A DNA stretch of 36,941 nucleotides from an uncultured Bacteroidales bacterium. Lineage in GTDB: Bacteria; Bacteroidota; Bacteroidia; Bacteroidales; FEN-979. Shown in pieces: positions 1 to 24,024 of this stretch (its first letter is position 1; each line of letters opens with the position of its first letter). The stretch is from assembly GCA_903945175.1 (NCBI GenBank), contig CAJAUM010000105.1:1-36941 (forward strand). The letters run 5' to 3'. The translations under genes and the position numbers were made by a program. The notes under the pieces were generated by a model. It saw only the letters and a list, made by a program, of their open reading frames with translations, did no database searches and was not told the DNA's origin.

Positions 1-40
1 AGGGTGACAGGGTAACAGGGTGACAGGGTAACAAGGTAAA
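1..40. repeat. Octamer tandem repeat at window edge
   Basis: About five copies of an 8-base unit alternating between AGGGTGAC and AGGGTAAC, the last copy degenerate. The array probably continues to the left of the window. It is not a CRISPR because there are no unique spacers. It precedes, and may be related to, the heptamer array at 68-174. Confidence 0.8.
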
Positions 41-67
41 AGATGATTTGCTATAAAATGAATTTGT

Positions 68-174
68 CACTCGTCATTCGTCATTCGTCATTCGTCATTG
101 GTCATTGGTCATTGGTCATTCGTCATTCGTCACTCGTCATTCGTCATTGGTAATTGGTAATTGGTAATTGGTAA
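68..174. repeat. Heptamer tandem repeat (TCATTCG/TCATTGG/TAATTGG family)
   Basis: About fifteen copies of a 7-base unit with variants TCATTCG, TCATTGG, TCACTCG and TAATTGG. The array runs directly into the ATG of the membrane subunit at 175, so that gene has no recognisable ribosome binding site of its own. The reverse complement of the same heptamers (ATGACCA, ATTACCA) makes up the in-frame repeat at 2865-2959 in the next gene. This looks like a dispersed short tandem repeat family. Confidence 0.85.
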
Positions 175-1614
175 ATGGTTGAAGGTGGGTACATATTAAT
201 CGGATTTTTCGTGCTTTCGCTCCTGATGGGTGCGGTGGTCGGGCTGGTGCACAATAAGCTGCTGGCGAGGATTGTTACCATCCTGTATGTGGTTGTGCAC
301 ATCGCTTTTTCGGGTTATGGCTGGCTTCATCTGGGTGAAACCGTGCTCGATTATTTCACCTTCGATCCGCTGGGGGTATTGTTGCTTTCCATCCTGTCGA
401 TCCTCACCATCACCACCGTCTATCACGGGTTCATCTATGTGAAGGATGCCAAACCCCGGGTGTATGCCATCTACCATGCCGCGCTGATCGCCCTGGTAGC
501 CTCAATGTCGGGAGCCTACCTGGCCAACGGGATGACCACCGTGTGGATCTTCGTCGAAGCCACCACCCTTGCAGTCGCGGCGCTCATCTACCACGACCGC
601 ACGGCGATGGCGCTGGAGGCTACCTGGAAATATGTCTTTGTCTGTTCCCTCGGGATCGCCCTGGCCTACCTCGGGATCCTCTTCCTGGGATTTACCGTGC
701 ACGACATTCGTTTGCTCCATCTCTCCTTCGATTCCATCACCGAAATTGCCAGGATGGCCAACCCGCTCTACCTTAAAATCGCCTTTGTATTTGTATTGGT
801 TGGCTACAGTACCAAGATGGGATTGTTTCCGATGCACACCGTCACGGTGGATGCCCATACGGTTGCACCCCCGCCGATCAGCGCCTTCATCTCCACCACC
901 CTGATGAATGTCGGGTTCCTGGCCATCTTCCGCATCTATGCCCTCTTCTCGGCCACCACCATCCTGCCTTTCATGAATCACGTGCTGATCCTCTCCGGCG
1001 TATTATCCCTTCTTGTTTCAGTCGGCTATATGCTCAAGGCCAAGCACAACAAACGGATGCTGGCCTACTCCAGTCTCGAAAACATGGGCATTGTCGCCAT
1101 CGCACTGGGCGTGGGAGGTATCGGCTATTATGCCGCCATCCTGCACATCGTCCTCCACTCCTTTACCAAGGCAGGCCTTTTCTACCAGATGGGACAATCG
1201 TATAAAGTGATGGGAACCTACAAACTGGATGAATCGGGAAATTACATGAACCTATACCCGGCCGGGGCCACCGCACTGCTGCTGGGTTTTCTGTGCATCA
1301 CCGCGATCCCGCCATCGGGGATGTTCATCTCAGAATTATACCTGATGAAGGCGCTGATCACCTCCAAAGATTATGTGCTCCTGGCTGTCATAGCCGCGCT
1401 GCTTTGTTTTGTCCTCTACGCCTTAATCACCCGCGTACTTCACATTGTTTATTCCCAGCCTCGCGAAAAACCGCTGCATGAGCTGCAAAAGGTCAACCCC
1501 TGGCAATCATTCAGCCAGTACATTCTTTTCGGAATGGTCATTTTCATCTGTTTTGTTCAGCCTGCACCCCTCCGCCAGCTTATTGAATCGATCATCAACG
1601 CCCTGCCGAAATGA
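175..1614 (+). CDS. HyfF/NuoN-like proton-translocating membrane subunit of an Ehr-type complex
   Basis: A 479-residue polytopic membrane protein of the Mrp/NuoL-M-N antiporter-like family, closest in context to hydrogenase-4 subunit F. About 12-14 hydrophobic helices span its length. The family's ion-channel residues are visible: a buried Glu at E128 in VWIFVEATTL, and Lys K214 in GYSTKMGLFPMHT followed by DAHTVAPPPISA, the usual broken-helix TM7 region. The motif KRMLAYSSLENMG near residue 293 is also typical. It should conduct protons or Na+ in the membrane arm. Its stop overlaps the next start by 4 nt (1611-1614), showing translational coupling. Earlier membrane subunits (HyfB/C/E-like) would lie left of the window. 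The ATG at 175 is the first in frame and abuts the heptamer repeat, so the exact start is uncertain. Confidence 0.9.
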   Translation: MVEGGYILIGFFVLSLLMGAVVGLVHNKLLARIVTILYVVVHIAFSGYGWLHLGETVLDYFTFDPLGVLLLSILSILTITTVYHGFIYVKDAKPRVYAIYHAALIALVASMSGAYLANGMTTVWIFVEATTLAVAALIYHDRTAMALEATWKYVFVCSLGIALAYLGILFLGFTVHDIRLLHLSFDSITEIARMANPLYLKIAFVFVLVGYSTKMGLFPMHTVTVDAHTVAPPPISAFISTTLMNVGFLAIFRIYALFSATTILPFMNHVLILSGVLSLLVSVGYMLKAKHNKRMLAYSSLENMGIVAIALGVGGIGYYAAILHIVLHSFTKAGLFYQMGQSYKVMGTYKLDESGNYMNLYPAGATALLLGFLCITAIPPSGMFISELYLMKALITSKDYVLLAVIAALLCFVLYALITRVLHIVYSQPREKPLHELQKVNPWQSFSQYILFGMVIFICFVQPAPLRQLIESIINALPK

Positions 1615-3215
1615 CGAAGGAGACACGATACATCGAGCTGTTTTCAAATCCGGGCATGGTTGCACTGGAGGCCATTCCTGTGTTGAATTATCCGGATTTT
1701 ATTGCATTCCTTGATTTGGTTATGGGAGAGGAGGGAACCCATTGTGTGGCCTACTTCGTTGTTCCGAAGGGAGATACATACCGGTTTGTATGCTGCATGG
1801 CGGCAGATGAGAACCATGCCCTCGTGCTTTTTTCGCATGAACAGCCAATAAAACCCACGCCATCACTTCCTTCCATCACAGTCAAACACTTCCAGTTTCA
1901 TGTGTTTGAACGGGAGATCCATGAACAGTTCGGCATTGAATTCGAGGGTCATCCCTGGCTGAAGCCCATCCGCTATCCCTTCGACAGGGCCAATCAGGAC
2001 AGCGTGATGAACAATTATCCCTTCTATTCCATCGAGGGAGAAGGGCTGCATGAAGTCGGAGTCGGCCCCATCCACGCCGGCATCATCGAGCCGGGACATT
2101 TCCGGTTTATTTGTCATGGCGAGCGGGTGCTGCACCTGGAGATCCACCTGGGATACCAGCATCGCGGAATGGAGAAGCTCTTTGTTGAAAAGCAGCATAT
2201 CCTGGCCCAGTCGCTCCTGGCCGAAAGCATGGCGGGCGACACCACGGTGGGCCATGCGCTGGCCTATGCCGGGGCTGTTGAGGCACTGGCAGGGATCAGG
2301 GTTTCACAGCAGCGCTCCATGGAACGGATCGTAGCACTCGAACTCGAGCGGATTGCCGTTCACATCGGCGATACGGCCGCATTGTGCACCGACATCGCTT
2401 ACCAGTTCGGACAGGTGGTGAACGAAGCCCTGCGCACCATCATCATCAATACCACACAAATCTGGTGCGGCAACCGCTTCGGCAAGGGACTCATCCGCCC
2501 CGGCGGGACCAATTATCCACTCACGCAGGAGGTCATGGCAACGATCCTGAAAAACCTGGAAGAGGTTGAGGCGCGTTACAATCAGGTAACCGACCGGATC
2601 TTCTCGCTGCCAAGCGTGCTGAGCCGGTTCGAAGAAACAGGCAGGGTAACCACCATGCAGGCCACACTGATCGGCGCCGTTGGGATGGCGGCCCGAAGCA
2701 GCGGGATGTACCGCGATATCCGCTGGTCACACCCCTTCTCCGGCTATGTAGATCATTTTTACGACCCGGCCATGCTGCACAAAGGCGATGTGTGGGCCAG
2801 GGCCATGCTGCGTAAACTGGAGGTGGGGAAGTCGATGGAGGTAATCAGGGAGATGATCGTGGAAATGACCAATGACCAATTACCAATGACCAATGACCAA
2901 TTACCAATGACCAATGACCAATTACCAATGACCAATGACCAATTACCAATGACCAATGAAAAGAGCGAAAATCCCAACTATGATCTCAAGCTTGCACCAG
3001 ACTCACTGGCGATTTCGCTGGTGGAGGGTTGGCGCGGCGAGATTTGTCATATTGCGATAACAGATGATTCCGGTAATATCATCCATTACAAGGCCAAGGA
3101 CCCGTCGCTGCACAACTGGATGGCCCTGGCGCTTGCGGTGAGGAACCAGGAGATCTCCGATTTTCCGCTGTGCAACAAGAGTTTTAACCTGAGTTATTGC
3201 GGGAACGATTTATAG
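1611..3215 (+). CDS. NuoC-NuoD/HycE-like large subunit lacking NiFe ligands (Ehr type)
   Basis: 534 residues. The N-terminal part (about 1-150) is a NuoC/30-kDa-like domain containing EREIHEQFGIEF. The rest is a NuoD/hydrogenase large-subunit fold, with LEIHLGYQHRGMEKLF at the start of the domain. In active group 4 NiFe hydrogenases the next segment carries CxxC; here residues 208-211 read AGDT. The C-terminal CxxC is also absent: the protein ends with DFPLCNKSFNLSYCGNDL. Neither end can bind the NiFe site, which is the defining feature of Ehr complexes. Residues 419-450 are four MTNDQLP repeats plus MTNE encoded by a heptamer array, apparently inserted in a loop before the conserved LVEGWRGEICH segment. 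It is coupled to the upstream membrane subunit. Family assignment is firm; the substrate is unknown. Confidence 0.88.
   Translation: MTKETRYIELFSNPGMVALEAIPVLNYPDFIAFLDLVMGEEGTHCVAYFVVPKGDTYRFVCCMAADENHALVLFSHEQPIKPTPSLPSITVKHFQFHVFEREIHEQFGIEFEGHPWLKPIRYPFDRANQDSVMNNYPFYSIEGEGLHEVGVGPIHAGIIEPGHFRFICHGERVLHLEIHLGYQHRGMEKLFVEKQHILAQSLLAESMAGDTTVGHALAYAGAVEALAGIRVSQQRSMERIVALELERIAVHIGDTAALCTDIAYQFGQVVNEALRTIIINTTQIWCGNRFGKGLIRPGGTNYPLTQEVMATILKNLEEVEARYNQVTDRIFSLPSVLSRFEETGRVTTMQATLIGAVGMAARSSGMYRDIRWSHPFSGYVDHFYDPAMLHKGDVWARAMLRKLEVGKSMEVIREMIVEMTNDQLPMTNDQLPMTNDQLPMTNDQLPMTNEKSENPNYDLKLAPDSLAISLVEGWRGEICHIAITDDSGNIIHYKAKDPSLHNWMALALAVRNQEISDFPLCNKSFNLSYCGNDL
2865..2959. repeat. In-frame heptamer array inside the large-subunit gene
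   Basis: Four perfect 21-base units, each three heptamers (ATGACCA ATGACCA ATTACCA), plus 11 bases of a fifth. They encode (MTNDQLP)4-MTNE. The heptamers are the reverse complement of the variants at 68-174. The 7-base unit is not a multiple of three, so gain or loss of one heptamer would shift the frame, whereas 21-base changes would only alter loop length. Confidence 0.93.
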
Positions 3216-3241
3216 AATACACCCATCATCTTTCATAAATA

Positions 3242-3730
3242 ATGATAACGGCAGAAGACATATTACTTTTAACTTCAAGCGGAGAAGGATACAATTCTGA
3301 ATTTAAATTGGCTGTACCATCCAAAGTACGGGATCTTACCGAAGAGGTATGTGCTTTTGCTAATGCGGCCGGAGGGATATTATTAATGGGGGTAAACGAC
3401 CATAACGAAATTACAGGTATTCGTATTGATAATGTTAAACGGTCAGCCATACAAAACAGTATTGGGGAAATTTCGCCACCCCTTCATTGTAGTTTGTCCT
3501 TTAATGGAACTGTGGAGAAAACTGTGGAGAAAACTGTGGAGAATATTATCAAGAATCTCATTCTGGAAAATCCGAAGATAACGACTAAAAATATGATAAA
3601 AGCCACAGGTCTAACGCGTAGAGGGGTTGAATATCATTTGAATAAATTGAAAGACTCCGGAAAAATTGAACGGGTTGGTTCGGACCGGGGAGGGTACTGG
3701 AAGGTTATTGAAATCAACAATGAACAATGA
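3242..3730 (+). CDS. Short AlbA_2 (Schlafen-like) plus winged-helix protein
   Basis: 162 residues. The N-terminal 75 or so (EFKLAVPSKVRDLTEEVCAF, AGGILLMGVNDH) match the AlbA_2 putative nucleic-acid-binding domain. The C-terminal 50 or so (ITTKNMIKATGLTRRGVEYH, LKDSGKIERVGSDRGGYWKV) form a winged helix. They are joined by a TVEKTVEKTVEN spacer from a 12-base repeat. Full-length relatives usually have a long middle region between these domains, so this looks like an internally deleted version. It sits between two subunits of the Ehr operon, is more AT-rich than either, and has no plausible role in the complex. It is probably an insertion, possibly still a DNA-binding regulator. The start at 3242 gives the complete AlbA_2 domain. 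Confidence 0.75.
   Translation: MITAEDILLLTSSGEGYNSEFKLAVPSKVRDLTEEVCAFANAAGGILLMGVNDHNEITGIRIDNVKRSAIQNSIGEISPPLHCSLSFNGTVEKTVEKTVENIIKNLILENPKITTKNMIKATGLTRRGVEYHLNKLKDSGKIERVGSDRGGYWKVIEINNEQ
3509..3544. repeat. 12-base tandem repeat in the AlbA_2 gene
   Basis: Three copies of ACTGTGGAGAAA (the last ends in T), encoding TVEK-TVEK-TVEN. The unit is a multiple of three, so copy-number change keeps the frame. It marks the junction between the AlbA_2 and winged-helix domains. Confidence 0.85.
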
Positions 3731-3747
3731 AAATAAGACTACTTTAG

Positions 3748-4563
3748 ATGCCGCTGAAAGAGATAAATATCCTTCGCCGCCACGGACGGCAGTATGTTCC
3801 CGACCTGCGGAATGCCGTGCTGCCCGATATCTTCCGCGGAAGGCCTGTCATCAGCGGGGATATCACCGCGGCTGAGGCGGAACTGGTCAAAAAGCTTTGC
3901 CCGGTGAATGCGATTGGCGCGGATCCCGCTGCCCCGACACCCGGACCTTTGGTAGCCGGCTCATCGGAAATGGAACAGATCCGCTGCACCATCGACCTGG
4001 GTAAATGTCTCTTTTGCCGGGAATGTGCCTTTGCATTGCCCGGTAAGATCAGCTTCACCCACGATTATAAAATGGCAACCAATGTCCGCGACCGCCTGGT
4101 CGTCGCCTCCGGGAATGATCAGCCGATACAGCTTGATCCTGACAAGGTGCGCAGGGAGATCCGACTCTTGTTCAAACATGCACTCAAGCTGCGCCAGGTG
4201 TCGGCGGGCGGCGACAATTCCGCCGAAATGGAGCTGAATGCCGCCGGGAATGTGAATTTCGACATGGGACGGTATGGAATCGAATTTGTGGCCTCGCCCC
4301 GCCATGCGGATGGCCTTGTCATCACCGGGCCGCTCTCCCAACACATGGCCGAACCGCTTCAGATTTGCTATGATGCGATTCCTTCACCGAAGATGATCAT
4401 TCTCGCCGGCACCGATGCCATCAGCGGGGGCATCTTCCAGGGAGGTCCGGCGCTGAACAGGGATTTTTTAGATAAATATCCGGTGGATCTGTTTGTTCCC
4501 GGAAATCCGCCGCATCCGCTCACCTTCATTAACGGAATCCTGGATTTAATCGGCCGAAGGTGA
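3748..4563 (+). CDS. Ferredoxin-NuoB-like fused small subunit with missing N2-cluster ligands (Ehr type)
   Basis: 271 residues. Residues about 1-110 resemble the HycF/NuoI-type ferredoxin subunit. Residues about 160-271 resemble the NuoB/HycG small subunit (YGIEFVASPRHADGLVITGP, AISGGIFQGG). Ferredoxin cysteines present are C51 (in CPVNAI), C87, C90 and C93; motif 1 CxxCxxC is gone and the fourth Cys of motif 2 is L97. In 2[4Fe-4S] ferredoxins the retained set is exactly one cluster. In the NuoB part none of the proximal-cluster cysteines remain: the CxxC region reads ELNAAGNVNFD (from 162), the usual GxCA is AGTDA (220-224), and PGCPPRP is PGNPPHP (N253). The only Cys there, in QICYDA, is not at a ligand position. 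It follows the AlbA_2 gene by 17 nt and ends the operon. Confidence 0.85.
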   Translation: MPLKEINILRRHGRQYVPDLRNAVLPDIFRGRPVISGDITAAEAELVKKLCPVNAIGADPAAPTPGPLVAGSSEMEQIRCTIDLGKCLFCRECAFALPGKISFTHDYKMATNVRDRLVVASGNDQPIQLDPDKVRREIRLLFKHALKLRQVSAGGDNSAEMELNAAGNVNFDMGRYGIEFVASPRHADGLVITGPLSQHMAEPLQICYDAIPSPKMIILAGTDAISGGIFQGGPALNRDFLDKYPVDLFVPGNPPHPLTFINGILDLIGRR

Positions 4564-4613: not shown

Positions 4614-5141
4614 ATGAAAACAATACTTCTGTTTTTTATTGTCCTGTTGCTTCCCTTCATCGGAGTTGCGCAACCCATTGCCAAGCAAGATTCCCTTAAC
4701 TACTATAAGTTTCATGCTGAGGCTGAGTACGAAATGGTTGGTGACAATGCCACCTCTATAAAATGGCTGAATAAGGCAATCAGGTTGGATCCGAATGATG
4801 ACGAGCTCTATCTGCTCAGGGCCTTTGCAAAGGGGGCCATCGCGGACTGGAAGGGACAGGAGGCTGACTACACCAGGGTCATCGGCCTCGATCCGGGCAA
4901 TGTGGCCGCCTATACCGGCCGTGCAGCCTGCCGCTTCACCTTAAAGAAATACAAGGAATCCATCAGCGATTATAACTGGCTTATTGAGGTTGACCCAACC
5001 TATTATGGTTTTTTCTTCAACCGCGGCATGTGTAAATGGAGGCTGAAGGACAAGGAGGGGGCTTGTTTCGATTACAGGCTGGCTACGCAGATGGGCAGTT
5101 CGGCAGCCTATGTATTGGTTATGGAGCATTGCCTGGAGTAA
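4614..5141 (+). CDS. Secreted/periplasmic TPR-repeat protein
   Basis: 175 residues. A signal peptide (MKTILLFFIVLLLPFIGVAQ) is followed by about three tetratricopeptide repeats, with helices such as SIKWLNKAIRLDPNDDELYL, DYTRVIGLDPGNVAAYTGRA and SISDYNWLIEVDPTYYGFFF. TPRs are protein-interaction scaffolds; no catalytic domain is visible. It is probably monocistronic: a promoter-like element precedes it and another precedes the next gene. A role with its neighbours cannot be inferred. Confidence 0.8.
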   Translation: MKTILLFFIVLLLPFIGVAQPIAKQDSLNYYKFHAEAEYEMVGDNATSIKWLNKAIRLDPNDDELYLLRAFAKGAIADWKGQEADYTRVIGLDPGNVAAYTGRAACRFTLKKYKESISDYNWLIEVDPTYYGFFFNRGMCKWRLKDKEGACFDYRLATQMGSSAAYVLVMEHCLE

Positions 5142-5184
5142 AAACGCCCCTCGTTCCATCCGGCGCCAGATATAAAAATTCTTT

Positions 5185-5192
5185 TAACTTTG
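5185..5192 (+). promoter_or_regulatory. Bacteroidota-type -7 promoter element
   Basis: TAACTTTG lies 23 nt upstream of the chosen ATG (5216) of the STAS gene. Its position supports that start rather than any of the in-frame upstream codons, which lie inside the TPR gene. No -33 TTTG is recognisable. Confidence 0.45.
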
Positions 5193-5215
5193 TTCACTTA
5201 TCCACCTTCAGGCGT

Positions 5216-5515
5216 ATGACCATAGAAATTCTTCATTCCGATAAAGCCCTGCTTAAACTTGCCTTTTCGGGTAAACTTGATGCCAATACCGTTGCCAACG
5301 GATCCATGGAATTTTTTGCCTTGCTGAACAAAAGGAAAAGCCCTGTCATTGTTGATTTTTCAGAAGTCACTTTTTTGTCCTCCCTGGGCATCCGGATGTT
5401 ACTTACTGCCTCAAAAGAGGTGAAAGAGCAGGGACACGCATTAAAAATCGAGCATCCCAGCCCCGAAATCGAAAAAATCTTTCATACAGCCGGCCTTGCT
5501 GACCTCCTCTTGTAA
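5216..5515 (+). CDS. STAS-domain protein (anti-sigma factor antagonist-like)
   Basis: 99 residues forming a single STAS domain, as in SpoIIAA/RsbV. The signature VDFSEVTFLSSLGIRMLL contains the Ser that is phosphorylated in the family. The preceding beta strands (ILHSDKALLKLAFSGKLDAN) and the closing EIEKIFHTAGLADLL helix are intact. Members bind a serine kinase/anti-sigma factor or partner-switching phosphatase. No RsbW-like kinase or PP2C phosphatase is encoded in the window, so its partner is elsewhere. The open frame extends upstream into the TPR gene, but ATG 5216 follows the promoter element and begins the domain. Confidence 0.82.
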   Translation: MTIEILHSDKALLKLAFSGKLDANTVANGSMEFFALLNKRKSPVIVDFSEVTFLSSLGIRMLLTASKEVKEQGHALKIEHPSPEIEKIFHTAGLADLLL

Positions 5516-5530
5516 AACCCCCTTGGCAGC

Positions 5531-5932
5531 ATGACAAAAGCCATCATCATTGATCTTCCGAAAATTGAAGATCCACGCGGAAACCTTTCAATCATAGAGG
5601 AAGAAATCAACATTCCCTTTAAAATTGAACGCACCTACTGGATTTACGATGTTCCAGGCGGACAGGTCAGGGGCGGACATGCCTTTAAAGCGCAGCAGGA
5701 GCTCATCGTGGCGCTCTCCGGCAGTTTTGACGTGGTGGTGGATGACGGAAAGGAAAAACAGACCTTCTCGCTCAACCGGTCATACTACGGCCTATACATC
5801 CCCCCCGGCTTCTGGCGGCAGATGCAGAATTTTTCGACCAATTCTCTGGCCCTGGTGTTAAGTTCAACCCCATTCAGCGAAGCGGATTATATCAGGGATT
5901 ATCAGGATTTTTTAAAGGCCGGGAGATCATGA
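5531..5932 (+). CDS. FdtA/QdtA-family (WxcM-like) cupin, sugar 3,4-ketoisomerase-like, copy 1
   Basis: 133 residues forming one small cupin. Family enzymes isomerise dTDP-4-keto-6-deoxyglucose to the 3-keto sugar, the step before 3-amination. The pattern DPRGNLSIIEEEINIPFKIER, WIYDVPGGQVRGGHAFK and ALSGSFDVVVDDG is typical. The active-site motif reads HAFK, whereas well-studied FdtA/QdtA have HAHK, so one His is replaced by Phe. It overlaps copy 2 by 4 nt (ATGA) and heads the sugar operon. The altered motif could mean a different product, a non-catalytic partner, or a tolerated variant. Confidence 0.82.
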   Translation: MTKAIIIDLPKIEDPRGNLSIIEEEINIPFKIERTYWIYDVPGGQVRGGHAFKAQQELIVALSGSFDVVVDDGKEKQTFSLNRSYYGLYIPPGFWRQMQNFSTNSLALVLSSTPFSEADYIRDYQDFLKAGRS

Positions 5933-6372
5933 ACAGGCCCACGATCTCCAACTGCCACATGGTTGAACTCCCACGCATCCCTTACCGTGCCGGCAACATA
6001 ACCACAGTTTCAAATGAGCAGGAAATTCCCTTCGCCATCCGGCGGATATTCTATATTTATGATATTCCCGGAGGAGTAGACCGGGGCGCACATGCACACC
6101 GAACCTGTCACCAGTTTTTAATCGCTGCGAGCGGAAGTTTTGAAATAGAGCTGGATGATGGCATGGCCAAACGAACGGTGATGCTGAACCGTCCCTATTT
6201 TGGACTGCATGTCCCGCCGGGGATATGGGCTGCCGAAAAGGGCTTTTCCTCGGGGGCCATCTGCCTGGTACTGAATTCACATCTGTTTGATGAAGGGGAT
6301 TATATCAGGGATTATGCAGATTATCTTAATTTCGTCGGACCATCATCACTGGATCCGTCAGTACAAATCTAA
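5929..6372 (+). CDS. fdtA: FdtA/QdtA-family sugar 3,4-ketoisomerase-like cupin, copy 2
   Basis: 147 residues, a tandem paralogue of the preceding gene with the same fold: FYIYDIPGGVDRGAHAHR, AASGSFEIELDDGMAKR, YFGLHVPPGIWAAEKG. It keeps the HAH pair expected of the catalytic site, so it is the better candidate for the dTDP-4-keto-6-deoxyhexose 3,4-ketoisomerase that would feed the aminotransferase at 8033. It is translationally coupled to copy 1. The product stereochemistry (galacto versus gluco) cannot be read from sequence. Confidence 0.85.
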   Translation: MNRPTISNCHMVELPRIPYRAGNITTVSNEQEIPFAIRRIFYIYDIPGGVDRGAHAHRTCHQFLIAASGSFEIELDDGMAKRTVMLNRPYFGLHVPPGIWAAEKGFSSGAICLVLNSHLFDEGDYIRDYADYLNFVGPSSLDPSVQI

Positions 6373-7065: not shown

Positions 7066-8012
7066 TGATGGAACACATCGACCAATCAGAGGGGCTGTTC
7101 GAATCGAGGAAGCAGGAGCTGTTCTTTTATTCTCCCTATTCTTTCCTGCGCACGCCTTCGCAGGATGCACTGTTTCGCACGACGGTGAAAGAGCCCCTGA
7201 TCAAAAAGATTCATCACAGGCAAATCGATGTGATTCCCGTCGAGGTGGATCACCAGACCTTTCTGTTTCTGGTTGAACACTTATCGTGGGATTCCGATTA
7301 TTTTGGTTTCCCAACCTACAGGCTTCATTCGGTGCTGTTTGAAAAAACGGATCAGCGCAGATTGACCGCGGCTGTGCTGCATTTCAAGGAACGCTTTTTT
7401 AATCAACCGGGACGCTATTGTTTTACCGATGTTCCGAGTGAAGACATTGTATTGCTGCAGGCCTTGACCGGCGCCGGCTTCAGGTTGATTGAAACCAGGA
7501 TGACCTATTATCTGGAGCTTCAGAAGTACAGTTACGAGCGGTATCCGGTGAGGGAGGCCACCCATCCAGATATCCCAAACCTGCGGAGGGTAGCCAGTGA
7601 GGCTCGAAATCCGTTTGACCGGTTTCATGCCGATCCCATTTTTGACCCCATCAAGGCTGATGCATTTCTCGCAACATTTGCAGAGGAATCGGTCAAGGGT
7701 TTCGCTGACTATACCATGGTCCCCGATGAACCCGGCACCCCGCCTGATGCATTTCTTACGGCCAAGCTGCTCAGGGATGAATGGCCGGTCATCGGGGCGA
7801 AGGTCTCCAAAATGGTCCTATCCGCAGTTTCATCCAAAACATGCAAAGGATGGTACAGGAAGCTGATCTCTGAAATGGCCTATTATTTACAATCGCAGGG
7901 GGCTGATTATGCTTTTATGCACCCGGCCTCAACAAACAAGGCGGTATTTTATGCATACGAGAATCTGGGATGCAGGCTTGGCCAGGTCACCCATGTGTTT
8001 TCGTTCAGCTGA
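7065..8012 (+). CDS. GNAT-type acetyltransferase, RffC/WecD-like
   Basis: 315 residues. The segment [19 protein letters not shown] is the hallmark N-terminal element of TDP-fucosamine acetyltransferase (WecD/RffC)-like proteins. A GNAT-like C-terminal half ends in [20 protein letters not shown] and [20 protein letters not shown], typical of the last helix and strand. In this operon it probably acetylates the amino sugar made by the aminotransferase downstream. The first ATG (7065) overlaps the SDR stop; a second ATG at 7068 is equally possible. The longer than usual N-terminus (residues 1-65) is of unknown function. Confidence 0.72.
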
Positions 8013-8032
8013 CATTTTACTTCAATAAACAG

Positions 8033-9142
8033 ATGGTTAAATTTCTCGACCTCCTTAAGATCAATGCACAATATGCCGACGAACTCAAGCAGGCAGCCGC
8101 TGACGTCATCGACTCCGGATGGTATCTGCAGGGTGAAAGGCTCAGCCGGTTTGAAGCCAACCTGGCAAGCTATACCGGGGTGAGGCATGCAGTGGGTGTG
8201 GCCAACGGGCTGGATGCCCTGCGGCTGATCCTGAAGGGCTATATCGCGCTGGGGGTGATGCAGGAGGGCGATGAGGTGATCGTGCCGGCCAACACCTACA
8301 TTGCCTCCATCCTGGCCATTACCGACAACAGGCTGATTCCCATCCTGGTTGAACCGGATTTACAAACCTATAACCTGGATTTTAGGCTGATCGAGCAGTA
8401 TATCACCCCGCGCACCCGGGCCATCATGCTGGTCCATCTGTACGGACAGGTTTGCTGGAGTGGAGCAGTGGAGGAGATTGCAAAAAAATACAACCTGAAG
8501 ATCATCGAAGACAATGCACAGGCCATGGGCGCATCGTGGAACGGCCGGAAAAGCGGATCGCTGGGCGATGCAGCCGGAAACAGCTTTTACCCGGGCAAGA
8601 ACCTGGGCGCGCTGGGCGATGCGGGAGCCGTAACAACCAATGACGATGCGCTGGCCTCCATGGTGAGGGCCCTGGGCAATTACGGCAGTGAGAAGAAATA
8701 TGTAAACAGCTACCAGGGGCTGAACAGCCGCTTGGACGAAATACAGGCCGCCTTCCTCGACGTCAAACTCAAATACATCGATGCCGAAAACCAGCGCCGC
8801 AGGGAGATCGCACAGCAATATTGCAACCACATCAAACATCCGGATGTCCAATTGCCTTTAAACCATCTCCATGATTTTGAGGCCGGCAGCCACGTGTTTC
8901 ACCTTTTCGTGATTCGTACCACCCACCGCGACAAGCTCCAGGCTTATCTGTCAGACCGGAACATCCAAACCCTGATCCATTATCCGATCCCTCCGCACAA
9001 GCAGGATGCCTATAAAACATGGAACCATCTTACCCTGCCTGTTACAGAGCAGATCCATCGTGAGGTGCTGAGCCTGCCGATCAGCCCGGTAATGACAGAA
9101 GAGGAGGTGCAACACATCATTCAAGTTATCAACGCCTATTAA
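8033..9142 (+). CDS. fdtB: DegT/DnrJ/EryC1 aminotransferase, FdtB-like
   Basis: 369 residues, PLP-dependent sugar aminotransferase. The pattern [20 protein letters not shown] opens the protein, followed by [12 protein letters not shown] and [36 protein letters not shown] precedes the Schiff-base lysine K189 in [16 protein letters not shown]. With the FdtA-like isomerases upstream it should make dTDP-3-amino-3,6-dideoxyhexose. The frame is open 63 nt further upstream, but that segment lies in the preceding gene; ATG 8033 begins at the conserved N-terminus. rmlA/rmlB for the precursor are not in the window. Confidence 0.9.
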
Positions 9143-9153
9143 TTTCGCCAACC

Positions 9154-10083
9154 ATGCTGAGCCTGATTTTACTCTCCTATTACAGCGGCGACCGGATCGC
9201 GAAGGCCTATCAACGACTATCGGAGGTACTCGGAAAGGAGCAGATTCCCTTCGAGCTGATTGTCATTGACGACGGGTCGAAGGACCATTCCTATGAACTC
9301 GCCCTGGCGCTTGAAGCCGCGCATCCCAATGTAAGGGCCTATCAGCTGAGCAAAAACTACACCCCGCACTATGGGGTTTTTGCCGGACTGACCCTCTGCA
9401 AGGGTGATTGTGCCATGCCCATCCCCGACGATGAACAGCAGCCCTACCACACCATCGTCGACATGTACCGGCTGTGGCAACAGGGGATCAAGGTGATTGT
9501 TCCCTACCGCATCAAGCGAAATGATGGATTTTTCAATAATCTGTTCGCCAGTCTCTATTATAAAACGATCAATGCCCTGTCGGATATCCGCTTTCCCGAA
9601 GGCGGAGCGGATACCTTCTTGATCGACCGTGAATTGATTGATATCCTCAATGCCAGGATACACGCGATAAATACCTCAAGCATCACCGAGGTGCTGCGTT
9701 TGGGCTATAACCCACACCATTATCCCTATGAACGCGTGAAGGGGGTCAACACCAAATCGAGGTGGACCTTTAAGAAAAAGGTAAAATTATTTAAAGATAC
9801 CTTCTTTTCCAGCTCTACCTGGCCTGTGAAACTGATCACCTTCATGGGATTTTTCTTCTCCTTTTTCGCCCTGGCCATCATCCTGTTTTACACCTACATC
9901 AGGCTGTTCGGAAATCCGGCCTTCTGGGGTGCAAACCTGCCCGGCTGGACGGCGACCGTGGTGATCATCTCCTTTTTTTCGGGGCTGACCCTCTTCTCAC
10001 TCGGCATCATCGCCGAATATATCTGGCGCATCTATGAAGAGGTCAAAAACCGGCCCGGATATATCATCAAAAAGAAACCCTGA
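9154..10083 (+). CDS. Family 2 glycosyltransferase, polyprenol-phosphate type (DPM1/GtrB-like)
   Basis: 309 residues. The GT-A domain starts directly with LSLILLSYYSGDRI, contains ELIVIDDGSKDHS and the acidic IPDDEQQP site, and ends near residue 205. Two transmembrane helices follow (about 225-250 and 270-295). Members transfer a sugar from a nucleotide donor to a polyprenol phosphate on the cytoplasmic face. It is the last gene of the operon, 11 nt after fdtB, and may use the amino sugar made there. A convergent gene ends 90 nt downstream. Confidence 0.85.
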   Translation: MLSLILLSYYSGDRIAKAYQRLSEVLGKEQIPFELIVIDDGSKDHSYELALALEAAHPNVRAYQLSKNYTPHYGVFAGLTLCKGDCAMPIPDDEQQPYHTIVDMYRLWQQGIKVIVPYRIKRNDGFFNNLFASLYYKTINALSDIRFPEGGADTFLIDRELIDILNARIHAINTSSITEVLRLGYNPHHYPYERVKGVNTKSRWTFKKKVKLFKDTFFSSSTWPVKLITFMGFFFSFFALAIILFYTYIRLFGNPAFWGANLPGWTATVVIISFFSGLTLFSLGIIAEYIWRIYEEVKNRPGYIIKKKP

Positions 10084-10172
10084 GGTTAAATCGGGATTTT
10101 TCCTGGCGCTGCTGTTGCCTTCCAATCATCGTGTCGAGGCAGCAGTTGGGCGTGTTGTCATTGGGGTAAAGG

Positions 10173-11993
10173 CTACTCCTCCCGGGTAATGATCCATTTG
10201 ACAGTTGTAATTTGCTGATCATGCTGAATGCGGATATAATAGATTCCCGCGGACAGCCCTTTGGCGTCAAGGAGTACGGAATTTTTCAGGAAATCGGGAG
10301 GTTGAATAAATGACCGGATCTCATGCCCCATCGGGTCAAATAGGGAAACCTCCACCTTGCCAGATACCGCTTCTGAAAATTGAATCCAGGATTGATCATG
10401 CGAGGGATTGGGATACACAGCAACATGCGTATCTACGTTGCTTTCAGGCGGAATAATTCCCACCGGACCCAGATTTCCATCGAGTTTGAGGTTTTGTGCA
10501 TAAACAGATCCAACGGGATTGAATGCCGCATCTCTGTTTTCCCCCCATGAAACAACATACATTTCATTGTTTAAATCGGTTATGTCGGGGTAGTATTTGG
10601 TACCCTGGGTGGTGGCAAGCAAGACGTGAGAAGGCGACCAGACCGAATTGCCCGCAGGGTCTATTCTCATTGCAAAAAGCTGATCGAACCTCACGGTATC
10701 AGGCCCAATGATCTCTCTATAGGCCCGGTCGCCGAAAAGGATAAAATCGTGTGAAGGGGTCATTTTCAAAGTAAGTACATACCAGGCCGTATCCATGATG
10801 TAATCGACAAGCACCTTCCCGAGATCTCCCCACTTGCGTGTGCCGTCCTCCCCGAATCGCTGGCCTACCAGGCCGATCCGGGACAACCCTCCCGAGGGCT
10901 TGTCCTCATCCCAAACGACATACAAATCCTTCGAAACGGAATCATAAGCCATCATAGGCTCCACACGGTTATATCCATAATTCACGGTTGAAACGGCAAT
11001 CCCGTTCAAAGGCCATTGCAGGTTGCCGGCAGTATCAAGATGCTGCGCATAGATATTCCAGTAATTGGAAGCGTATCTGTCGTCGAACCAACTGATAAAG
11101 AGGCCCTGTTGGGGGTCCTGAACGGGATGAATCTGGAAATATTCTGGCAGATATTGTGCTGAATCAGCCGTAAGTTCACAAATTTTGGCTTTTTCAGGCC
11201 ATACCGTTGATCCTGCACTGTTAAATCGTTGTGCGTAGATATAGGTCCAATATTGCTGCCCGAGCCCGACTATTTCGGTGGAAATCCGGCGCTGCCAGCA
11301 TAAAATAAAATCATCAGCCCCCACAGGGAAAAGTTTAGGAAATCTGGCGGTGCTGTCCACATCGGGAACCATGATCGGTTCAGACCAGAGGAGGGCTCCA
11401 GAAGGAGATAGTTTCTGAATCCGGATAAATGATTTCCAGTTTGTGGTATCTGTTCCGAAATAGCCGCCGGCATCCCAGGCTATGAGCCTGTTTCCGCTGT
11501 TCGTGAAGCCAAGAATCGGAGAATAGGAATTAACGCTGTCCATCGGGTCAGTGTATATAAAAACCCCGTTGGGGTTCCAAACCGCGCTGCCGTCGGGAGC
11601 CACGCTATAGGCGACTACCTGGCTGGCATCTGCACCGCCGCGCATATCTTCGAATGCAATGACCGCATTCCCCGCGGCATCACTCTCAAGTGAGTAATCG
11701 CTTAACCAGGTTCGGCAGGGCTGGTTGCTGATCCTGATGCCATCAGGCCCCCATAACGGGTAGCCATCGGGGGAGATGTGCTGAAGCCAGAAATTATAAC
11801 TCGTATCAGGATTCAGTATTTCTTTCCATCCTGAAATATAATAGCTTCCCTGGGGTGTCATGGCAATCTTGGGAAAGCTAATGTCCTTCAGGGTACCCAT
11901 AATAAAACTATTTTCTGACGGATCAGTGCTCCACTGGGCCATGGCCAGGGTGCCCTGCAAAAAGAACATTGCGAGGGTAAGCGCTTTTTTCAT
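10173..11993 (-). CDS. Secreted T9SS-sorted protein with beta-propeller-like repeats
   Basis: 606 residues. A signal peptide (MKKALTLAMFFLQGTLAMAQ) starts the protein. About seven or eight repeats follow of the form aromatic-A-Q-x-(5)-G-x-x-x-W, for example YAQHLDTAGNLQWPLNG, AQRFNSAGSTVWPE and AMRIDPAGNSVWSPS, suggesting propeller blades. The C-terminal 80 residues are a Por/type A sorting domain: VAVYPNPSHDQSWIQF, KVEVSLFDPMGHEIRSF, GLSAGIYYIRI. It is therefore exported by Sec, then by the type IX system to the surface or medium. No enzymatic motif is recognised. The start at 11993 fits the signal peptide; ATG 12002 is an alternative. Confidence 0.85.
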   Translation of the reverse strand: MKKALTLAMFFLQGTLAMAQWSTDPSENSFIMGTLKDISFPKIAMTPQGSYYISGWKEILNPDTSYNFWLQHISPDGYPLWGPDGIRISNQPCRTWLSDYSLESDAAGNAVIAFEDMRGGADASQVVAYSVAPDGSAVWNPNGVFIYTDPMDSVNSYSPILGFTNSGNRLIAWDAGGYFGTDTTNWKSFIRIQKLSPSGALLWSEPIMVPDVDSTARFPKLFPVGADDFILCWQRRISTEIVGLGQQYWTYIYAQRFNSAGSTVWPEKAKICELTADSAQYLPEYFQIHPVQDPQQGLFISWFDDRYASNYWNIYAQHLDTAGNLQWPLNGIAVSTVNYGYNRVEPMMAYDSVSKDLYVVWDEDKPSGGLSRIGLVGQRFGEDGTRKWGDLGKVLVDYIMDTAWYVLTLKMTPSHDFILFGDRAYREIIGPDTVRFDQLFAMRIDPAGNSVWSPSHVLLATTQGTKYYPDITDLNNEMYVVSWGENRDAAFNPVGSVYAQNLKLDGNLGPVGIIPPESNVDTHVAVYPNPSHDQSWIQFSEAVSGKVEVSLFDPMGHEIRSFIQPPDFLKNSVLLDAKGLSAGIYYIRIQHDQQITTVKWIITREE

Positions 11994-12200
11994 AGGAGTC
12001 ATTTTTTTTGTTTGACATGTAAAGATAGTCAATATAAAAGCCAAAAGCAAGACCATGGGTCTGAATCAAAAGAGGCCAAAATTGAGCGTAAGGTTAAGGT
12101 ATGGCTGTTTACTCCAAATCAATCGTGAAATAATTAACAGTATGTAAAAAATATCCAGTTATACATAAGTTTTTATAATTTAGTGGGTTATTAGCGACCC

Positions 12201-14822
12201 ATGGATTACAGATTAGAAGATTTAATCGATATCACCCTGCTTCAGAATTTGCAGGATAAGCTGAATCTGGTTTATTCATTCCCATCGGCCATCATCGACA
12301 ATGAGGGTAAAGTGCTCACCGCGGTGGCATGGCAGGAGTTGTGTACAAAATTTCACCGGATCCATCCCGCCTCCGAGCAAGCGTGCATCAAAAGCGACCA
12401 GTACATTTTAGCGCACCTGCATGAAGCAAATCCCGCGGTGAGCTACCAATGTCCGCATGGGTTAACCGACAATGCAACGCCGATCATCATTGATGGAAAA
12501 CACCTGGGTAATTTTTTCACGGGTCAGTTTTTTCTCGAAAAACCGGACCTGGAATTTTTCAAAAAACAGGCAAACCTATATGGTTTCGATGAAACAGCCT
12601 ACCTGGAGGCCGTGGAGAAGGTCCCCGTATGGACCAAAGAAAAACTTGATCTCTATCTTGATTTTATCAAGGGATTTATCGAAATCATCGCGGGGATCGG
12701 CCTGAATAACCTAGAAATAATAGAATCACATAAATTTATTAAAGAGAGTGAAGACCGGCACCGAACCATCCTGCAAACGGCCATGGACGGTTTTTGGCTG
12801 TTGAATATGCAGGGGCATTTGATTGAGGTGAACGAAGCCTATTGTCGCATGAGCGGCTATTCAGCGCAGGAGCTGCTGACCATGCGCATCTCCGATTTGG
12901 AAGTGGCGGAGACCGTAAAAAATTCCGAGGCCCATATTCAAAAAGTTATTGCGCAGGGCGAGGACCGTTTTGAAACCCGCCATCGGAAAAAGGATGGAAG
13001 CATCATGGATGTCGAAATCAGCGTGAAGTATCAAACGAATGATGGCGGCCGGCTCGTGGCCTTCCTGCAGGACATCACTGCGCGAAAACAGGCCGAACAG
13101 GAAAATATCAAAACCAAAGAGTACACCGAAGTTTTACTGAAAGAGACTCAAAAACAGAAGTCAGAACTTGAATTACAGAACGAACGGCTGGAGGGTTTAC
13201 TCCGGATTTCGCAATACCAGCCGAAATCAAATCAGGATTTTCTTGACTTTGCGCTCAGGGAGGCCATTGGATTGACTTCAAGTAAATTGGGGTACATCTG
13301 TTTTTACAACGAATCATCCAGTCAGTTTACCTTGAATACCTGGTCGAAGGAGGTGATGCATGAATGCACCGTGCTGGATCCTCAAACCACCTACGACCTG
13401 GATAAAACAGGCTGGTGGGGTGAAGCGGTAAGGCAACGTAAGCCCATCGTAATAAACAATTATGCAGAAGAAAACCCATATGCGAAGGGCACACCCCTTG
13501 GACATGTAACACTTTCCAAATTTTTGACCATTCCCGTTTTTATCGATAAAACCATTGTGGCGGTGGTGGGCGTTGCAAATAAACCAGATGATTATCAGCA
13601 ATCTGATATCCGGCAGCTGACCCTGCTCATGGATACTGTTTGGAGAATTTCGGAACGGGAACTGCTTTTTGAAAATCTGAAAGATGCGAAGGAACATGCC
13701 GAGGAGAGCGACCGCCTGAAATCAGCCTTCCTGGCCAACATGAGCCACGAAATCCGTACGCCCATGAACGGCATTCTGGGGTTTGCCCAACTGCTGAAAG
13801 AACCGAACCTCTCGGGCGATGAACAGCAGGAATATATCCGCATCATCGAAAAAAGCGGCGCCCGCATGCTCAATATCATTCATGATATCGTTGATATTGC
13901 AAAAATAGAATCGGGACAGATGGAGGTCTCCATTTCCGAAACCAATATCAACGGTCAAATCGAATTTATTTATGACTTCTTCAAGCCGGAGGCTGAGCAA
14001 AAGGAGATCCAGCTCTTCTTCAAAAACCACCTGTCGTCGAAAGAGGCCATGATTCACACGGATCGCGAAAAAATCTACGCCATCCTGACCAACCTTGTTA
14101 AAAATGCCATTAAAAACACCAGGAAAGGGTCGGTGGAATTTGGGTATGAGAAAAAGGAGTCCGACCTCGAATTTTTTGTCAAAGATACCGGGGGCGGAAT
14201 TCCAAGGGAGAGACAGCAGGCCATCTTTCAACGCTTTATTCAGGCCGACATGTCAAATAAGCGGGCCCACGACGGGGCGGGACTGGGTTTGTCGATCGCC
14301 AAAGCCTATGTGGAGATGCTGGGCGGGAGAATTTGGGTGGAAAGTGAATTTGGCAACGGGGCAACATTTTATTTTACGATACCTTATAACACTGAATATG
14401 GGGAAATAAGAACAAGTAAAATAATCATTAATAAAGAGCATAATTCACCTCCCGTTAAAAAGCTGAAAATTTTAATTGTCGAAGATGACGAAGATTCACA
14501 AAGGCTCATGTCGCTGATGGTTAAAAAAGTCGGGAAAGAACTTTTAATGTGCAGCAATGGGTACGAGGCGGTCGAAGTTTGCAGGAACCATCCCGACCTT
14601 GATTTGATCATGCTGGATATCAAATTGCCCGGAATCAGTGGATATGAGGTCGCCGGGAACATCAGGCAATTTAACAGCGGGGTAATCATCATTGCCCAGA
14701 CCGCCTTTGCCATTTCGGGTGACAGGGAAAAGGCATTGGAGGCAGGATGCAATGACTATATTACGAAACCCATCAAGGAGAATGTATTGTTGGCGCTTAT
14801 TCAAAAGCACGTTGATCCTTAG
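12201..14822 (+). CDS. Hybrid sensor histidine kinase: PocR-PAS-GAF-HisKA-HATPase-REC
   Basis: 873 residues with no clear membrane helix. Residues about 5-170 are a PocR ligand-binding domain (LQDKLNLVYSFPSAIIDNEG, SYQCPHGLTDNATPI, GNFFTGQFFLE). A PAS domain (about 185-300), a coiled coil and a GAF domain (about 335-490; GYICFYNESS, TGWWGEAVRQRKPI) follow. HisKA has the phosphoaccepting H516 in NMSHEIRTPMNG. The HATPase has DTGGGIPRERQ and GAGLGLSIA. A C-terminal receiver has D806 in LDLIMLDIKLPG. It likely senses a small molecule and relays phosphate to an unlinked output. Its stop overlaps that of the convergent kinase at 14819. Confidence 0.92.
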   Translation: MDYRLEDLIDITLLQNLQDKLNLVYSFPSAIIDNEGKVLTAVAWQELCTKFHRIHPASEQACIKSDQYILAHLHEANPAVSYQCPHGLTDNATPIIIDGKHLGNFFTGQFFLEKPDLEFFKKQANLYGFDETAYLEAVEKVPVWTKEKLDLYLDFIKGFIEIIAGIGLNNLEIIESHKFIKESEDRHRTILQTAMDGFWLLNMQGHLIEVNEAYCRMSGYSAQELLTMRISDLEVAETVKNSEAHIQKVIAQGEDRFETRHRKKDGSIMDVEISVKYQTNDGGRLVAFLQDITARKQAEQENIKTKEYTEVLLKETQKQKSELELQNERLEGLLRISQYQPKSNQDFLDFALREAIGLTSSKLGYICFYNESSSQFTLNTWSKEVMHECTVLDPQTTYDLDKTGWWGEAVRQRKPIVINNYAEENPYAKGTPLGHVTLSKFLTIPVFIDKTIVAVVGVANKPDDYQQSDIRQLTLLMDTVWRISERELLFENLKDAKEHAEESDRLKSAFLANMSHEIRTPMNGILGFAQLLKEPNLSGDEQQEYIRIIEKSGARMLNIIHDIVDIAKIESGQMEVSISETNINGQIEFIYDFFKPEAEQKEIQLFFKNHLSSKEAMIHTDREKIYAILTNLVKNAIKNTRKGSVEFGYEKKESDLEFFVKDTGGGIPRERQQAIFQRFIQADMSNKRAHDGAGLGLSIAKAYVEMLGGRIWVESEFGNGATFYFTIPYNTEYGEIRTSKIIINKEHNSPPVKKLKILIVEDDEDSQRLMSLMVKKVGKELLMCSNGYEAVEVCRNHPDLDLIMLDIKLPGISGYEVAGNIRQFNSGVIIIAQTAFAISGDREKALEAGCNDYITKPIKENVLLALIQKHVDP

Positions 14823-17788: not shown

Positions 17789-19057
17789 ATGAAAAATACA
17801 TTTACTTGCATCTTATTCCTGGTGTTTGTGGTGCTTAAATTGCAGGGCCAGGACTATTTTATCAGTTTTTCCGGCAGTGGAGCTGCTACGCAGGTAGGAA
17901 CCGTTGAAGTTACAAACCAGAATTCAGGAACTACGGTCACGCTCAATGGGGGAGATTTGCTACATCTTATTCCCGCCCTGGGTATCAACCCGATAAACAA
18001 TCAAGAAACGCCGGTTCAGATTTTTCCAAATCCGACGTTTGATGGATCCGCTGTTATCAGATTTATAACTTCCGAAACCGGAAAAGTAGTTGTAAACCTG
18101 ATTGATATCTCGGGTAAAATCGTAAGTCAATCAGATATGATGCTAAAGCGCGGCGAACATGACTTTGAGATTTCTGCTCTTCATCGTGGGTTTTATTTTT
18201 TGAGTATCTCCTCTCCCGGCCATTCTGCTATCGCCAAACTCATCAGCAACACGGAGATGCAGGGGGCAACCCGCATTGAACACCTTCATTCGAATGCAAA
18301 CGCATCTGCAACGAATTTAAAGAACAGCCATGCTACAGTTGACATGCCCTATTCCAATGGCAACATCTTATTGTATAAAGGCATGGCGGGGGAGTACAGA
18401 TCTGTTGTTACCGATGTGCCGACCAGCAATCATACCATCACATTCCCTTTTGTCTCTTGCAAGGATCACGATGGAAATACTTACGCAACCGTTCAGATCG
18501 GTACCCTAAAATCAGGAGTCCAGACATGGATGGCGGAAAATCTTAATGTTGGGGTTCGTATTCAGGATATTTTCCAGACTAACAATAACGTCATAGAAAA
18601 AAACTGTTATGAAAACATGGACGCAAATTGTAATGTCTATGGAGGTTTGTATACCTGGGGGGAGGCGCTGCAATACACAGGATTGGAAGGAGCACAGGGA
18701 ATTTGTCCCGGTGGCTGGCACATCCCTAGTAAAGATGAATGGAGCGAATTAACCACCTGGACATCCCTTGGACCTGAAGAGTTTGCCGGAGGAAAGATGA
18801 AAGAAGCGGGGATTATCCACTGGAAATCACCCAATACCGGCGCTACAAATGAAAGTGGTTTTACGGGCCTTCCGGCGGGTCTCAAAACCCCTAATGTCTA
18901 CGGTTATATGGGCGAAAGTGGTCACTTCTGGTCCTCCACAGAAATTCCTCCAATAAATGCATGGTCATGGGGCTTGGTTTACAGCAACAGTAGTTTTGGA
19001 TTCACCGGAACGATTGAGCAGGGATGGGCATTTAGTATTCGGTGTATTAAAAATTAG
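17789..19057 (+). CDS. Secreted FISUMP-domain protein with internal T9SS-like domain
   Basis: 422 residues. A signal peptide (MKNTFTCILFLVFVVLKLQG) starts the protein. A beta-rich segment resembling a Por secretion-tail domain lies at about 85-165: VQIFPNPTFDGSAVIRF, VNLIDISGKIVSQSD, GFYFLSI. The C-terminal part (about 235-422) is a Fibrobacter succinogenes major paralogous (FISUMP) domain, with QTWMAENLNVGVRI, YGGLYTWGEALQYT, CPGGWHIPSKDEW, SGFTGLPAGL, GHFWSSTEI and FSIRCIKN. It is probably surface-exposed; the function of FISUMP domains is not established. A lipoprotein gene follows after 8 nt, likely in the same transcript. The start was moved from 17741 to 17789 to give the signal peptide. 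Confidence 0.87.
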   Translation: MKNTFTCILFLVFVVLKLQGQDYFISFSGSGAATQVGTVEVTNQNSGTTVTLNGGDLLHLIPALGINPINNQETPVQIFPNPTFDGSAVIRFITSETGKVVVNLIDISGKIVSQSDMMLKRGEHDFEISALHRGFYFLSISSPGHSAIAKLISNTEMQGATRIEHLHSNANASATNLKNSHATVDMPYSNGNILLYKGMAGEYRSVVTDVPTSNHTITFPFVSCKDHDGNTYATVQIGTLKSGVQTWMAENLNVGVRIQDIFQTNNNVIEKNCYENMDANCNVYGGLYTWGEALQYTGLEGAQGICPGGWHIPSKDEWSELTTWTSLGPEEFAGGKMKEAGIIHWKSPNTGATNESGFTGLPAGLKTPNVYGYMGESGHFWSSTEIPPINAWSWGLVYSNSSFGFTGTIEQGWAFSIRCIKN

Positions 19058-19065
19058 CCAGCCCC

Positions 19066-19464
19066 ATGTTCAAACCATCATACCTGATTGTCGTTATATA
19101 CATGGCTGCCACCCTGATTTTTTCGGGCTGCGTAAAGGACAACTTTTCAAAACCTTCGGCTGTGATTAATTTTCCGAGTATAAAAACCAATCTCATAAGT
19201 AATATTACCCAAACCACCGCTGTCAGTGGGGGAAATACCATTTATCCGGGAGAAGGCGTAATAAAAGCAAAAGGTGTATGCTGGGATACAAAATATAACC
19301 CTACACAATATTCATCCCCTCATACAGATGAAGGAGGCGGAACAGCGTCATTTACCTCCTTCCTGACAGGTCTTTCCCCAAATACCGTTTATTATTATCG
19401 GGCATATGCCGAGAGTGACAAAGGAACCGGATTTGGAGACCAATTAACCTTCAGAACGAACTGA
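19066..19464 (+). CDS. Small lipoprotein with a fibronectin type III-like domain
   Basis: 132 residues. A hydrophobic leader ends with the lipobox LIFSGC, so the mature protein is a lipoprotein. The remainder resembles a single Fn3-like/cell-surface repeat: KAKGVCWDTKYNPT, GTASFTSFLTGLSPNTVYYY, RAYAESDKGTGFGDQLTFRT. Such modules often recur several times in Bacteroidota surface proteins; here there is only one. It is probably co-transcribed with the FISUMP gene. Confidence 0.8.
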   Translation: MFKPSYLIVVIYMAATLIFSGCVKDNFSKPSAVINFPSIKTNLISNITQTTAVSGGNTIYPGEGVIKAKGVCWDTKYNPTQYSSPHTDEGGGTASFTSFLTGLSPNTVYYYRAYAESDKGTGFGDQLTFRTN

Positions 19465-19647
19465 GATTTGTCAAGTTCAAAAACGCTTTTTTTATCAGGA
19501 TATGACAATATATGGCTTTCAATTTCACTCATCGTGCTTAATAAAAGCCTGATACTAATTCTTGTAACGACACAAAATGACACTTGTTGATAAATTGTCA
19601 AAAGGGGCTTCCATACGGTCTTTACGAATTGCTATTTTTGACAACAG

Positions 19648-21552: not shown

Positions 21553-21559
21553 GTTTCAA

Positions 21560-23950: not shown

Positions 23951-24024
23951 ATGCTGTTTTTGCGGTTTGATGGGTGATTTTTCCACTACTTTTACTGGCT
24001 GTGAATTATCCTTTTAAATTGTAA

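Follow-up and report, generated by a model that had tools for sequence, protein, structure and literature searches.

An Ehr-type complex I relative of Bacteroidota that lacks the ligands of the NiFe site and of clusters N2 and N6a

We analysed a 36,941-nt stretch of DNA from an uncultured Bacteroidales bacterium of the lineage FEN-979 (assembly GCA_903945175.1, contig CAJAUM010000105.1; hereafter the window), which is the whole of contig C105 in a 4.4 Mb genome. The window starts inside an Ehr-type operon (HyfB-C-E-F-G-I-like) and carries its last genes. Judged by its sequence, the encoded complex is an Ehr in that it lacks the ligands of the NiFe site, and it is a variant in which the ligands of the iron-sulfur clusters N2 and N6a are missing as well. 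We found a large subunit homologous to those of group 4 hydrogenases in which both NiFe CxxC motifs are absent, a NuoB-like small subunit, and antiporter-like and NuoH-like membrane subunits, as in other Ehr complexes. Unlike in Ehr as described, the N2 ligands are replaced here by Asp, Asp and Asn, the N6a set is lost and the ligands of one ferredoxin-type cluster are left. The three genes of the window that belong to this module are open at 175-1614, 1611-3215 and 3748-4563, as a first-pass annotation of the sequence had read them. Their features are as follows.

175..1614, + strand: HyfF-like antiporter-type membrane subunit, 479 aa (PF00361, E 3e-39)
1611..3215, + strand: large subunit, fused NuoC/NuoD-like (HyfG/EhrL-like), 534 aa (PF00329, PF00346)
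2232..2243, + strand: AGDT, residues 208-211 of the large subunit, first NiFe CxxC position (alignment to HycE)
3192..3203, + strand: S528-Y-C-G531 of the large subunit, second NiFe CxxC position (alignment to HycE and across homologues)
3748..4563, + strand: small subunit, N-terminal ferredoxin domain fused to a NuoB-like domain, 271 aa (PF01058 at residues 160-266)
3898..4026, + strand: C51, C87, C90 and C93 of the small subunit, ligands of the single retained ferredoxin cluster (N6b-like), conserved in homologues
4213..4224, + strand: D156 and A159 of the small subunit, first two N2 ligand positions (alignment to MbhJ)
4414..4416, + strand: D223 of the small subunit, third N2 ligand position (alignment to MbhJ)
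4504..4506, + strand: N253 of the small subunit, fourth N2 ligand position (alignment to MbhJ)

The nearest solved relatives of the large subunit are HycE (7z0s_E, E 4.3e-49) and MbhL (6cfw_L, E 4.5e-45). AGDT aligns with CGIC of HycE, and the C-terminal NLSYCGND aligns with DPCYSCTD, where S528 and G531 replace the ligand cysteines and C530 lies between them. The window therefore has no NiFe site, and the four cysteine ligands that mark a group 4 [NiFe] hydrogenase are absent; the first-pass annotation had correctly described both the AGDT substitution and the lack of a C-terminal CxxC. AGDT or AGDS was found in 68 of the 77 large subunits read in the set from the window's order (defined below), and CGDT in one. 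A quinone site of the complex I kind is missing too. By alignment to Nqo4, G209 and P161 stand in place of Y87 and H38, which we take to be the quinone Tyr/His pair, and both replacements are invariant in 59 N2-less sequences. The same 59 large subunits all share H184, R185 and E188 (the HRGxE motif), G209, D210, D393, S528, Y529, G531 and D533.

In the small subunit, alignment to MbhJ (6cfw_J) pairs SCNGCD with GDNSAE, GAC with GTD and PGCPP with PGNPP, which places D156, A159, D223 and N253 at the four N2 ligand positions. None of the four is a cysteine in the window, and at most one is in the N2-less members counted. This bears out the earlier claim that the NuoB-like domain has no cysteine at these positions, and its motifs AGTDA and PGNPPHP were right; the first pair, which it had placed in ELNAAGNVNFD, lies in GDNSAE. 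PF01058 was matched by 59/59 small subunits of alignment A4. The annotation had also allowed for other cysteines aligning at the ligand positions, and none were seen there; C207 occurs also in the N2-bearing sequence L137, elsewhere in the alignment.

The replacements are uniform. Among 167 distinct N2-less sequences, position 156 is Asp in 164 and Glu in 3, position 223 is Asp in 158, Ala in 6, Glu in 2 and Asn in 1, and position 253 is Asn in 166 and Asp in 1; positions 223 and 253 are both Cys in 14 of 14 N2-bearing sequences. We compared these two groups column by column, leaving out L145, L146, L148, L149 and L150 and scoring a column when it differed between them and was 75% or more uniform within each. 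Only columns 156, 223 and 253 passed, all three with Cys as the N2-bearing state. The groups are defined by the ligand columns, and the difference at these three positions is partly by construction; the uniformity of the replacements and the failure of any further small-subunit column to pass are not. In the large subunit, the same comparison (13 versus 182 sequences, at least 70%) returned only column 292, which changes from Arg or Lys to Lys.

We next turn to the ferredoxin domain, whose C51/C87/C90/C93 pattern we take to be that of cluster N6b in NuoI. These cysteines are present in 88/88 homologues from the window's order and in 80/80 from the genome_contigs set. The N6a set, consisting of three upstream cysteines and a downstream one, was found in 12 of 15 N2-bearing sequences; of the other three, L149 has the set outside the counted stretch, and L139 and L141 are without it. 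None of the 167 N2-less sequences has more than one of the three upstream cysteines. L139 and L141, Ehr small subunits found in the window's phylum, have their N2 cysteines, which implies that loss of N6a does not require loss of N2. In the N2-less complexes the iron-sulfur wire thus appears to be cut at both ends, at N2 and at N6a, and electrons could get no farther than a single cluster. The first-pass annotation had suggested as much for the window, and the absence of NiFe, N2 and N6a ligands beside a retained N6b-like set is consistent with it.

To define the distribution of this state we used 88 full-length small subunits (E up to 5.3e-92) from 87 of 393 genomes of the window's order; three partial matches (G390, G054 and G638:C128) lie outside the 88. 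N2 is absent in 84 of them. Read at positions 156/159/223/253, 58 are D-C-D-N, 8 are D-A-D-N like the window, 18 are N2-less in other ways and 4 are C-C-C-C. A search of the class (395 genomes) added 14 small subunits, 13 without N2 and 1 with it. All of the best 80 of 586 genome_contigs loci were N2-less, including those of the isolates Niastella vici and Chryseolinea serpens; this set is biased to near relatives, and 16 of its members repeat genes of the order count. In a sample of the phylum (296 genomes), N2-bearing forms prevail alongside the window's own gene, at 10 of 11, including two that belong to a more distant type. Across these genomes, the N2-less complex is a widespread, conserved group in Bacteroidota and not a chance feature of one sequence.

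Two N2-less small subunits were found in other phyla, both on plasmids. L148, from Allomeiothermus silvanus, has T/D/E/S at the N2 positions, and L150, from Mycobacterium branderi, has N/D/D/A. In both, N6a is also gone, the four N6b cysteines are kept and position 223 is acidic, as it usually is in the Bacteroidota group. Relatives of L150 from Burkholderia and Caballeronia (L149, L273 and L274) carry the cysteines of all three clusters. The losses in L148 and L150, which are long branches, apparently occurred separately, given their phyla, their differing replacement residues and the trees. A further candidate, L131_11289 (TCCC), was rejected as N2-less; its tandem cysteines are offset, and it is a normal NuoB of complex I. 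On another plasmid, plasmid 3 of Variovorax sp. PBL-E5 (L147), two different Ehr-like operons adjoin (7463-14747 and 18159-25606), and both have their N2 cysteines.

The genes are maintained by selection. For both subunits, compared with four relatives, nonsynonymous divergence (dN) was 0.13-0.17 against a synonymous divergence (dS) of 1.1-1.9, which is near saturation; dN/dS is about 0.1, which indicates purifying selection on the large- and small-subunit genes. How many times N2 was lost within Bacteroidota differs between the two subunits. A quick small-subunit tree with the ligand columns masked gave a single N2-less clade (77 sequences; 99 by the Shimodaira-Hasegawa-like approximate likelihood ratio test, SH-aLRT). 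A more careful tree of 52 sequences, with the N6a columns also masked, had two changes and did not reject one clade (approximately unbiased (AU) test, p 0.66). The large-subunit tree of 96 sequences showed five changes in all, and a careful tree of 51 of these rejected one N2-less clade (AU p 2e-5), because the N2-bearing L236, L261, L267 and L268 fall inside it. These four have N2-bearing small subunits and large subunits that branch among N2-less ones; they may reflect loss in parallel, regain of N2 or a swapped small subunit, and the trees do not separate the three.

The membrane arm retains the charged residues that we checked. E128 and K214 of the HyfF-like subunit, singled out by the first-pass annotation, are present in the window; among homologues, E128 is found in 81/81 that have a residue there, and K214, K332 and E387 in 82/82 distinct sequences. 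Where a residue is aligned, E139, K218 and K346 of HyfB (105 distinct sequences) and E131, E182 and E196 of HyfC (80 distinct sequences) are invariant. Two or three sequences in each of the three sets come from plasmids.

We considered what such a complex might do. Given that the membrane arm is conserved and that no known kind of active site is present, movement of ions without passage of electrons through the arm to a substrate seems most likely. Our favoured reading, to which we give about an even chance, is of an Ehr-type complex I relative whose peripheral arm no longer conducts electrons from end to end while ion translocation persists. The membrane arm would still move H+ (or exchange Na+ for H+), and the former oxidoreductase arm would act as a cap, gate or sensor that passes no electrons to a substrate. 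The N6b-like cluster would then be structural or sense redox state, and the D/D/N residues would keep the former N2 pocket folded and charged. Functionally it would resemble an Mrp-type ion translocator that still bears the fossil of an oxidoreductase arm. The earlier reading had foreseen the loss of NiFe and N2 ligands beside a conserved membrane arm; it had not anticipated a conserved group, the D/D/N replacement, the loss of N6a or the cases in other phyla. To what the complex couples ion movement we can, as that reading did, only infer.

Several observations count against this interpretation. The conserved N6b cysteines, the HRGxE motif and the invariant residues of the large-subunit cavity could mean continuing redox chemistry. 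The downstream N6a cysteine is retained in 17 of 167 N2-less sequences. Of the 84 N2-less members of the order, 60 retain a Cys at position 159 (58 DCDN, 1 DCEN and 1 ECDN), and the pocket may therefore bind something. Finally, a regulator or a ligand was not found, nor a gene beside the operon that recurs in more than 10 of the 95 distinct loci compared (105 loci, ten of them repeats).

The first alternative, which we regard as rather unlikely, is that the complex has remained an oxidoreductase. Electrons from a ferredoxin or flavodoxin would be accepted by the N6b-like cluster and passed straight on to a partner protein or small molecule, at an acceptor site nearer than the NiFe or quinone site and perhaps in the space left by N2. 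The invariance of the N6b cysteines in all 88 order homologues and of the ten large-subunit residues from H184 to D533 would fit continuing catalysis, and the N2-bearing sisters are presumably redox enzymes. However, electrons usually enter through N6a, whose ligand set is lost as well, and without N2 the gap from N6b to the former active site would exceed the usual electron tunnelling distances. A recurrent partner gene is also missing: no gene outside the operon occurs in more than 10 of the 95 distinct loci. The commonest neighbour families, ABC transporter parts as judged by eye, reach 7 to 10 of the 95 and stand in both orientations, and we rejected a conserved partner.

It is less probable still that the role of N2 has passed to a different metal or an unusual cluster held by the D/x/D/N (often D/C/D/N) residues. 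In its favour, the cysteines have given way to three specific, nearly invariant polar residues, and Cys159 is retained in most N2-less members of the order. A precedent comes from the sulfane sulfur reductase MBS, in which, as described in the portion of PMC7684303 consulted, one cysteine at an N2 position is already no ligand. Against a new metal site, no thiolate is left in the window and in some relatives, position 223 is Ala in 6 of 167 sequences, and the N6a set has disappeared together with N2. Asn is, moreover, a poor metal ligand.

A more speculative idea, and one we likewise think improbable, is a swap of protons for electrons, in which protonation of D156 and D223, or binding of a cation there, mimics reduction of N2 and triggers the stroke of the membrane arm. 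Both residues align with N2 ligand positions, and two carboxylates carry a formal charge of -2, equal to that of an oxidised four-cysteine [4Fe-4S] cluster. Position 223 can be acidic in each of the three N2-less groups (the Bacteroidota group, L148 and L150), but Ala in 6 and Asn in 1 of the 167 sequences speak against the idea. On this account, pH or cations would gate a machine that resembles complex I but transfers no electrons.

It has long been asked how, in complex I, events near N2 are coupled to ion channels far away. The complex described here, which is natural and conserved and has kept the coupling machinery but lost the last cluster, one ferredoxin cluster and the active site, offers a test object for this question. 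Should it move ions, coupling does not require electrons to travel through the arm; should it fail to, the arm must serve some other purpose.

Ehr complexes have been described as group 4 relatives without NiFe ligands, of unknown function or suspected to translocate ions (PMC6349859, PMC10284858, PMC7304191, PMC10432482), and the relevant passages of these papers mention only the absence of NiFe ligands, not of N2. A description of an N2-less Ehr was not found in the portions of the open literature searched, which excluded the 2013 paper that defined Ehr. Excerpts of two further papers report that a Geobacter Ehr is more abundant on formate (PMC7894505) and list an Ehr among genes possibly serving pH homeostasis (genome paper PMC6688271). 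MBS is likewise a complex I relative that has lost part of the NiFe ligands and has an altered proximal-cluster loop; however, MbsJ keeps C28, C93 and C123 and uses the cluster in catalysis, according to the sections seen of PMC7684303, whereas three or four of the cysteines are gone here, and the three proximal-cluster cysteines typical of MBS/Mbx are absent from the window. Our complex adds one more step to the progressive ligand loss that the same sections trace from hydrogenase by way of MBS to complex I.

Hydrogenase-4 and formate hydrogenlyase (Hyf, Hyc) share the subunit types HyfB, C, E, F, G and I with our operon, and HycE is the best solved relative of the large subunit, but here the NiFe ligands, N2 and a full N6a are missing, and no extra gene recurs beside the operon in more than 10 of the 95 loci. 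The HRGxE motif is kept as in respiratory complex I (Nuo), but the N2 ligands and the residues equivalent to quinone Tyr87 and His38 are not. The R121M mutant of Yarrowia complex I, which is also without N2, assembles natively and does not reduce quinone, as stated in the part of PMC8042128 consulted, and indicates that an N2-less complex can assemble; in contrast to that mutant, the loss described here is natural and conserved, and includes N6a. The Mrp cation/proton antiporters offer a possible analogy, as homologous membrane subunits that translocate ions without redox chemistry, but they are membrane modules without a peripheral arm, and here the large- and small-subunit genes are present and conserved.

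Decay of a pseudo-operon or an assembly artefact, suggested by the unrelated open reading frame (ORF) and tandem repeats that interrupt the window's operon and by the contig break inside it, is highly improbable, and we rejected it given the open frames, the dN/dS of about 0.1, the uniform replacements and the same state in 84/88 order homologues and 80/80 of the best genome_contigs loci; the nearest homologues lack the cysteines and the cysteine-bearing ones are more distant (small-subunit data), opposite to what the first-pass annotation had named as a sign of decay. The interrupting features are as follows.

2864..2959, + strand: 21-bp tandem repeat, read in frame, in a large-subunit linker that varies among relatives
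3242..3730, + strand: SLFN/AlbA_2-type ORF (PF04326) between the large- and small-subunit genes, outside the module

None of the 104 further loci in the neighbour set has a homologue of the AlbA_2-type ORF, which contains an in-frame 12-bp repeat and has weak partial matches elsewhere in the same genome. The missing part of the operon lies at the end of contig C128 of this genome, which carries HyfB-, HyfC- and HyfE-like genes that are 82, 84 and 92% identical to those of the close relative L036. A short tandem repeat is common to both contig ends (window 1-175 and the end of C128), and the assembly probably broke there for that reason. The order HyfB, HyfC, HyfE, HyfF, large subunit, small subunit was found in 37 of the 95 distinct loci, and the same order with two HyfB-like genes in 24; in the remainder, a contig end truncates the operon, small ORFs split it or the arrangement differs. 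As far as the fetched loci reach, the genome also encodes other NuoB-type proteins with their ligand cysteines (L001 and L002), as well as HypD, so such assembly has not been lost in general. Downstream of the operon (4614-6372), a TPR gene is followed by a STAS-domain ORF and two tandem FdtA-like genes, the first of which matches PF05523 and the second of which is a homologue of the first. The TPR gene (4614-5141) recurs in six other loci, two of which are the same contig.
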